A stretch of 64,000 nt of DNA from Cystobasidium ongulense (Eukaryota > Basidiomycota > Cystobasidiomycetes > Cystobasidiales > Cystobasidiaceae). A program made the position numbers and the translations under genes. Every line of letters starts with the position of its first letter. Positions within the stretch are counted from its first letter, which is position 1. Shown piece after piece: positions 33,087-33,244 of this stretch. The stretch is from assembly GCA_022835595.1 (NCBI GenBank), contig BQUP01000002.1, positions 558,001-622,000 on the forward strand, written 5' to 3'. The notes under the pieces are model-generated. The model was not told where the DNA came from. It did not search any database and saw only the letters and a program-made list of their open reading frames with translations.

Positions 33087-33091
33087 AAAAA
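33087..33091 (-). terminator. Pol III T-run terminator of tRNA-Leu
   Basis: Read on the minus strand, five T residues lie about ten bases past the discriminator base of the tRNA. This is the usual distance for an RNA polymerase III terminator. Confidence 0.75.
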
Positions 33092-33101
33092 GAAGCTCAT
33101 T

Positions 33102-33244
33102 TGCTGCGGACGCGATTTGAACGCGCGAGGATTGCTCCAGTGGTTCTTAAGACCACCGCCTTAACTGATAGATGGAAAGGCCGTAAGAATGTGCATTTGC
33201 AAGAGTAGCGAATTAATTGTACTTACCCACTCGGCCACCGCAGC
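33102..33244 (-). tRNA. tRNA-Leu(UAA) interrupted in the D loop
   Basis: Exon parts are 33244-33227 and 33164-33102. The joined molecule has a perfect 7-bp acceptor stem (GCTGCGG/CCGCAGC), a GCC/GGC D stem and a 5-bp anticodon stem (GTGGT/ACCAC). The 7-base loop CTTAAGA contains anticodon TAA. A long variable arm (GGA/TCC stem, GCAA loop) marks class II Leu, and the T arm has loop TTCAAAT. The discriminator base is A. Internal promoter boxes survive: A box TGGCCGAGTGG ends exactly at the interruption and the B box is GTTCAAATC. No intron lies at the usual 37/38 site. Intact stems argue against a pseudogene. Confidence 0.93.
33165..33226 (-). other. 62-nt GT-AG insertion (candidate spliceosomal intron) in the tRNA D loop
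   Basis: The segment begins GTAAGT and ends CTATCAG on the minus strand, with CTTAC (a YTNAY branch-site match) about 20 nt before the acceptor. Its removal restores GAGTGG joined to TTAAGGCG, the standard Leu D loop. Length and signals match the protein-gene introns of this window. Eukaryotic tRNA introns removed by the tRNA splicing endonuclease normally sit after position 37, so this location is abnormal. Confidence 0.85.

Follow-up and report, generated by a model that had tools for sequence, protein, structure and literature searches.

The window, a 64,000-nt stretch of the Cystobasidium ongulense genome (contig BQUP01000002.1, positions 558,001 to 622,000), carries a tRNA-Leu(UAA) gene on its minus strand (Table 1). 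On that strand the gene reads GCTGCGG-TGGCCGAGTGG, 62 nt that interrupt the tRNA, TTAAGGC, the remainder of a class II tRNA with a TAA anticodon, CCGCAGC and A73. A sequence-only reading of the window had described the insert as GTAAGT...CTTAC...CAG and the tRNA as folding without it. The insert as first described is real: the letters are as stated, and ARAGORN reported Leu(taa), an 81-nt class II tRNA, only once the 62 nt had been removed. From the unspliced gene ARAGORN forced a wrong Leu(aag) with a 50-nt insert. At gathering scores Rfam found no tRNA anywhere in the window; below the cut-off, a weak tRNA-Sec match (15.9 bits, E 3.9) fell on the 3' part of the gene. The break had been placed in the D loop directly after the A-box GG, not after position 37, and the insert does follow G19, outside the 37/38 position of Sen-type introns. 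Both Pol III boxes and the T run, the presumed terminator, were also found, as had been claimed. The gene thus shows the cloverleaf of a class II tRNA, a TAA anticodon and A73, together with both promoter boxes and the T run.

Table 1. Features of the tRNA-Leu(UAA) locus, in window positions.
Feature	Position	Strand	Remarks
tRNA-Leu(UAA) gene	33102..33244	-	143 nt: 81-nt mature tRNA plus one 62-nt intron
Exon 1	33227..33244	-	acceptor 5' strand, T8 to G19
A box	33227..33237	-	TGGCCGAGTGG; wholly within exon 1
D-loop intron	33165..33226	-	62 nt, GT-AG, after G19
5' splice site	33221..33226	-	GTAAGT
Branch-site match	33183..33187	-	CTTAC; 19 nt from its A to the intron end
3' splice site	33165..33167	-	CAG
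Exon 2	33102..33164	-	remaining D arm, anticodon arm, variable arm, T arm, acceptor 3' strand, A73
Anticodon	33147..33149	-	TAA; ARAGORN Leu(taa)
B box	33113..33123	-	CGTTCAAATCG; 7 of 9 consensus positions
T5 run	33087..33091	-	presumed Pol III terminator, 10 nt past the discriminator base
Predicted exon junction			GAGTGG joined to TTAAGGCG after intron removal

In an unconstrained energy fold of the spliced tRNA the acceptor and T arms formed, and a different central hairpin replaced the D and anticodon arms; the cloverleaf therefore rests on tRNA models and not on free energy alone. In a blind pairing scan of the gene 49 of 3,427 deletions, the parsed one included, scored equal or better. 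Because cloverleaf pairing alone leaves the intron ends unfixed, these were taken from the GT-AG and from the matching D arms of the paralogous Ser genes. Some 270 nt downstream of the gene's end lies an ATG that, judged by eye, could start a gene on the same strand. A neighbouring choline-kinase-like ORF had 29 matches in a protein search. An adjoining stretch (33017-32925) looked tRNA-like by eye and was dropped, as ARAGORN and Rfam reported nothing there.

Intact Leu(UAA) genes elsewhere had been named as part of the case that would speak against a working gene, and they were sought in the whole 19.77-Mb genome with two structured patterns (TTAAR, a gap of 14-44 or 45-75 nt, GTTCRANNC, 11 nt, A, TTTT). 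Besides the window gene, the first pattern hit an intron of Glu and the A box of a Thr gene; the second hit two places, neither of them tRNA-looking. Thus no second Leu(UAA) gene was found by patterns that a long intron in the 3' half or an odd B box would escape. The uninterrupted D arm GCCGAGTGGTTAAGGC had no exact match. UUA accounts for 66 of 7,154 codons in nine long candidate ORFs of the window. A Leu(CAA) gene is present in the genome, and by established wobble rules Leu(CAA) should not read UUA.

An Rfam tRNA match was obtained at 24 places (63 of 554 candidates were scored), and because these were few, B boxes followed by T runs were sought and the acceptor strands paired. In one B-box listing of 53 rows all but C8:875558 were inspected or were already-known genes, and the B boxes with a 5-of-5 T stem all lay in parsed tRNA genes except for the truncated copy L095. 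In two further listings (30 and 42 rows, several per gene) the rows that were inspected gave, besides known genes, eight places that were fetched, six of which were tRNA genes. The truncated copies L027 and L095 were excluded before counting. In the 19.8-Mb genome 43 tRNA genes were found, comprising the 24 Rfam loci (Arg(CCU) and Ala(UGC) among them), 15 more interrupted genes, Glu(UUC), Gly(UCC), Thr(AGU) and a third, partly masked Asp copy. The census is incomplete and 43 is the number of genes found; His, Trp, Gly(GCC), Val(AAC), Ser(UGA) and others are absent from it. Seventeen of the genes are interrupted outside 37/38 and 26 are not.

Many tRNA 3' halves sit about 60 nt away from their 5' halves, and 22 ectopic inserts were parsed in 16 genes. 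Single inserts are present in Leu(UAA), Leu(UAG), Ser(AGA), Arg(UCU), Arg(CCU), Lys(UUU), Cys(GCA), Phe(GAA), Gln(UUG), Asn(GUU) and Thr(UGU), two each in Leu(AAG), Tyr(GUA) and both Ile(AAU) copies, and three in Ser(GCU). In the D arm they lie in the 5' strand of the stem and in the loop; in the anticodon arm they lie at the junction leading into the stem, within the stem and on the 5' side of the loop. Others are in the variable loop and in the T stem. The seventeenth gene, Ala(UGC), probably carries an ectopic intron as well, a 64-nt insert (GTTAGT...AAG) after acceptor position 7. ARAGORN found Ala(tgc) only with this insert removed, and a 5' acceptor match next to a GTNNGT donor is expected with a chance of 0.001 per random 92-nt stretch; the insert ends in AAG, and its removal leaves one acceptor mismatch. 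Ala(UGC) and a U6 gene described below were kept outside the statistics on the 22 introns. The Leu(UAA) insert is not a chance feature, because inserts of the same kind are present in 15 of the other parsed tRNA genes and probably in Ala(UGC). The sequence-only reading, which treated Leu(UAA) alone, holds for that gene but was too narrow, as the phenomenon spans at least 16, probably 17, tRNA genes.

Sites without an insert are also present. Ala(CGC) reads GGGGCTG-TAGCTCAG uninterrupted and is the empty site of Ala(UGC), and Lys(CUU) is that of Lys(UUU); spliced Lys(UUU) equals the intronless Lys(CUU) except for the anticodon and one T-stem pair. By our own reading of the anticodons, no anticodon is common to interrupted and uninterrupted genes among the 43 found. 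ARAGORN and our labels differ at L010 (Ala(tgc) against AGC, as in the near-identical L011) and at L021 (Ile(gat) against CGC); L010, if UGC, would be an uninterrupted Ala(UGC) copy. Second, inverted copies were observed for Ser(CGA) (C5:637225(-) and 639895(+), 5' part), Gln(CUG) (C9:330802(-) and 333621(+), 3' part) and Asp (C6:780047(+) and 782284(-), partly masked), 2.2-2.8 kb apart, an arrangement that a local inverted duplication or a mobile element could have left. One further locus (L019, C12:330124-330195) resembles a tRNA gene, has unusual anticodon and T loops (GATCAAAA) and was left unnamed by ARAGORN.

The 22 ectopic introns are 56-66 nt long (mean 61.0, sd 2.6). GT-AG ends are present in 21, the exception being the GA-AG of Arg(UCU), and the 3' ends are CAG in 18 and TAG in four. 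The donors are GTTAGT (seven), GTGAGT (four), GTAAGC (three), GTAAGT (two) and six others with one each. A CTNAY branch-site match is present in 22 of 22, against a mean of 10.0 and a maximum of 18 in 2,000 trials with shuffled interiors, and 10-23 nt (median 18; 8-40 were allowed) follow its A. The introns thus have the GT...AG ends, GTNNGT-like 5' site, CTNAY at a suitable distance and length of the U2 type. Among the seven GTTAGT donors six, two of them in the Ile copies, occur with a complementary CTAAY branch site.

The parses had been made by eye with GT-AG in mind. In a blind scan every deletion of 40-85 nt was scored by cloverleaf pairing only, the gene's other introns being removed as parsed. 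A GT-AG deletion was in the best set for 16 of the 22 introns, where 0.55 were expected (P about 5e-26 if the 22 are independent, which the two Ile copies are not). For six, Leu(UAA) included, another deletion was ahead by 0.5-2 points, because loops tolerate shifts. The scan left many ties for loop introns, and several inserts located in or beside stems were fixed to one or a few deletions. For Arg(UCU) the GT-AG deletion in the best set differs from the parsed one; to read this intron as GT-AG requires an enlarged D loop. The parsed D-loop intron of this gene (L067, C2:2726685) reads GAAAGT...TAACTAAC...CAG and is a possible GA-AG intron.

A motif-and-frame search of the window gave a rough set of 42 mRNA-like introns, against eight in the reversed control. 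Their lengths were 55-74 nt in 25 of the 42 (median 69.5), and the ectopic introns agree with this U2-type length; the branch distance had a median of 18, as in the ectopic introns. Since the set was selected for CTNAY and YAG, only its size, the control and the lengths are independent. The leading donors were GTAAGT (eight) and GTGAGT (seven). The Leu(UAA) insert had been likened to the introns of nearby protein genes, and it is similar to them in length and has GTAAGT, one of their leading donors. GTTAGT, the commonest donor of the ectopic introns with seven of 22, is absent from the 42 mRNA-like introns.

At 37/38 a short insert of 11-24 nt is present as well in 12 of the 16 genes, and none of these 12 inserts can be written as GT-AG. 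They are presumably removed by the Sen endonuclease, and the genome contains two partial matches to the Sen catalytic domain above the cut-off. The same enzyme might also excise the ectopic introns by accepting new sites, as it does in many archaea and in Cyanidioschyzon. Passages of one article (PMC3978253) describe endonuclease-cut ectopic introns of algae in the D loop and at 27/28, and many ectopic introns of the Guillardia nucleomorph that have no defined bulge-helix-bulge (BHB), and with the partial Sen matches such a route would have its enzyme here. However, BHB pairing at the ectopic boundaries averaged 2.95 of 8 against 3.10 of 8 at shifted ends and was complete in 0 of 22; in the Leu(UAA) intron two of four central, two of two outer and one of two inner pairs form, which is not a BHB. 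With pairing at background, the endonuclease route is without sequence support for the ectopic introns, and BHB introns were rejected as their class. The endonuclease would require neither GT-AG ends nor CTNAY nor a length of 56-66 nt, and the 37/38 introns of the same genes share none of the ends or lengths of the ectopic ones. Cutting at new sites is therefore very unlikely. The sequence-only reading had left the choice between spliceosome and endonuclease open; the genome-wide evidence favours the spliceosome, because of the GT-AG ends, the branch match in 22 of 22, the narrow length, the lack of a BHB and the different 37/38 introns.

The interrupted genes appear functional. After removal of the introns the cloverleaf scores were 27-31 in 16 of 16, while 24 of the 25 genes without ectopic introns that were scored reached 27-30 and L019 reached 23. 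ARAGORN reported a tRNA for 15 of the 16 spliced forms, which also gave the identity of Cys(GCA); the exception was Ser(GCU), whose third intron had not yet been removed, and Leu(AAG), Arg(CCU) and Thr(UGU) were given another anticodon because the 37/38 intron was placed elsewhere. On the 16 unspliced forms ARAGORN found no tRNA in 11 and made a wrong call in five. The ectopic introns would account for the small number of tRNA genes that standard tRNA finders report in this genome. Before splicing, 14 of the 16 genes have an A box that agrees with the consensus at 8 or more of its 9 positions; the box is weak in Arg(UCU) and Arg(CCU), with 6 of 9 positions matched in place and 7 of 9 at another site. 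In our reading the ectopic introns lie after the A box, or their GTNNG restores it.

That these genes are decaying copies, with intact genes elsewhere supplying the tRNAs, is more improbable still. Truncated tRNA copies exist in the genome (L027, L095), and the incomplete census may have missed intact genes. Yet none of the 16 has a cloverleaf score below the range seen in uninterrupted genes, each is followed within 13 nt by the start of a run of at least four T, and among the 43 genes found no uninterrupted one has an anticodon of this group. The two Ile(AAU) copies do not differ at any of 74 exon positions, while their introns differ at 17 of 63 and 2 of 65. The pseudogene reading was rejected on the scores, the Ile(AAU) exon identity and the absence of intact anticodon copies among the genes found. 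Least probable of all is that the introns belong to overlapping Pol II transcripts (e.g. as parts of 5' UTRs) and that the tRNA is made otherwise or not at all: the same-strand gene start downstream of Leu(UAA) and nearby mRNA-like introns of similar length would suit this, but removal restores the cloverleaf, several times inside stems, at many loci with their own T runs, and the unspliced RNA could not fold as a tRNA.

An insert was also present in a U6 gene (L111, C1:2352990-2353230), where AGAGAAG is followed by a 60-nt insert (GTTAGT...AATAG) in the conserved core and then by ATTAGCATGGCC. The ACAGAGA box of U6 is essential. The locus could be a divergent U6 copy, since Rfam aligned it through the insert, below the cut-off (37.3 against 44 bits), but the ACAGAGA box is missing unless the insert is removed. 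The U6 gene is thus probably interrupted by the same kind of intron as the tRNA genes. A further upstream intron ending in CTGCAG is perhaps present. U6 is made by Pol III (PMC10484740).

Among 231 pairs formed by 20 tRNA introns and those of Ala(UGC) and U6, 16 were alike at z>3, values that are inflated by the shared branch motif left in; the introns of Ser(AGA), Phe and Leu(AAG)-2 are alike with z up to 5.5. The 22-nt 3' part of the Ser(AGA) intron matched, with three mismatches or fewer, four places in the genome, three of which are tRNA introns; the one outside a tRNA gene (C6:87194) lies in a stretch that is protein-gene-like by eye. These likenesses are suggestive of spread among tRNA genes. 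A 181-nt stretch with the whole Leu(UAA) gene matched itself only. A genome-wide mobile intron family (introner) was considered and rejected, as no set of many near-identical copies was found in the genome. A D-loop intron pattern gave no match in IMG/VR or GTDB contigs, neither of which is a fungal collection.

To our knowledge, the known classes of tRNA intron are group I, group II and endonuclease-cut introns, none of them spliceosomal, and spliceosomal tRNA introns would therefore form a class of their own. Titles and the beginnings of abstracts gave no precedent for spliceosomal introns in tRNA genes, in a search outside which most of the subscription literature lay. The main text of Yoshihisa 2014 (PMC4090602) contains no word beginning with 'spliceosom'. 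In the sections of Canzler 2017 that bear on this (PMC5832005), spliceosomal introns occur in fungal U6, including that of S. pombe, and in U3, and among small structured RNAs these two alone are named as known to be interrupted often. The U6 introns are the nearest known kind, being mRNA-type introns in a small structured Pol III RNA; new here are the tRNA host and the larger scale, with many genes, up to three introns per gene, many positions and Sen-type introns alongside. The U3 snoRNA introns likewise combine GT-AG ends and a branch site in a small non-coding RNA (PMC5832005, in the same sections), but in a host that is not a tRNA. The mRNA-type intron in U2 snRNA of Rhodotorula hasegawae and the introns of ascomycete rDNA are, as far as partial accounts go, also spliceosomal introns in structured fungal RNAs, with snRNA and rRNA as hosts. 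Algal and archaeal ectopic introns resemble the present ones in number per tRNA and in their D-loop and anticodon-stem positions (parts of PMC3978253 and PMC8450103) but depend on a BHB, as in the BHB-mediated introns covered by portions of Soma 2014 (PMC3978253), whereas here the BHB is absent and GT-AG ends and a branch site are present. Noncanonical tRNA introns are handled as archaeal by tRNAscan-SE 2.0, in an excerpt of its description (PMC8450103). The canonical eukaryotic 37/38 introns share the nuclear tRNA host, and both kinds occur in 12 of the 16 parsed genes, but position, length, signals and the enzyme presumed to act all differ from the ectopic set.

The Leu(UAA) insert is thus very probably a U2-type spliceosomal intron in a functional gene transcribed by Pol III, and one of a population of such introns across the tRNA genes and U6. 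Pol III would transcribe the gene from the A and B boxes to the T run; U1, U2 and U6 would recognise GTNNGT and CTNAY, and the spliceosome would excise the ectopic introns of about 60 nt as lariats. The cloverleaf could fold once these are gone, and the short 37/38 intron, where present, would be removed by the Sen endonuclease and tRNA ligase in the usual way. The ectopic introns may have arisen by spread among tRNA genes, for example by reverse splicing. From what can be read in the DNA, namely the introns and their signals, the restored tRNA structure, promoter boxes, terminators and two partial Sen-domain matches, we infer transcription, use of the spliceosome, the order of these steps and the origin by spread. 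For the fungus as a whole it is likely that spliceosomal introns have invaded the nuclear tRNA genes, reaching 17 of the 43 found, with as many as three in one gene in addition to a Sen intron. On this reading they moved between tRNA genes, probably through reverse splicing, and became established mostly where the A box stayed intact or was rebuilt by the splice motif. Pol III transcripts would then pass through both spliceosome and Sen endonuclease, and many codons would be spliceosome-dependent.

Nuclear tRNA introns are held to be removed by a protein endonuclease and a ligase. The sequence of this genome indicates that a large part of the tRNA set needs the spliceosome. If this is true, translation is coupled to mRNA splicing by a previously unknown dependence of protein synthesis on the spliceosome, which would act on many Pol III transcripts that are unable to fold as cloverleaves before splicing. 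Paralogues with and without an intron, such as Lys(UUU) and Lys(CUU), offer a natural system for intron gain, in which reverse splicing into structured RNAs becomes directly testable.
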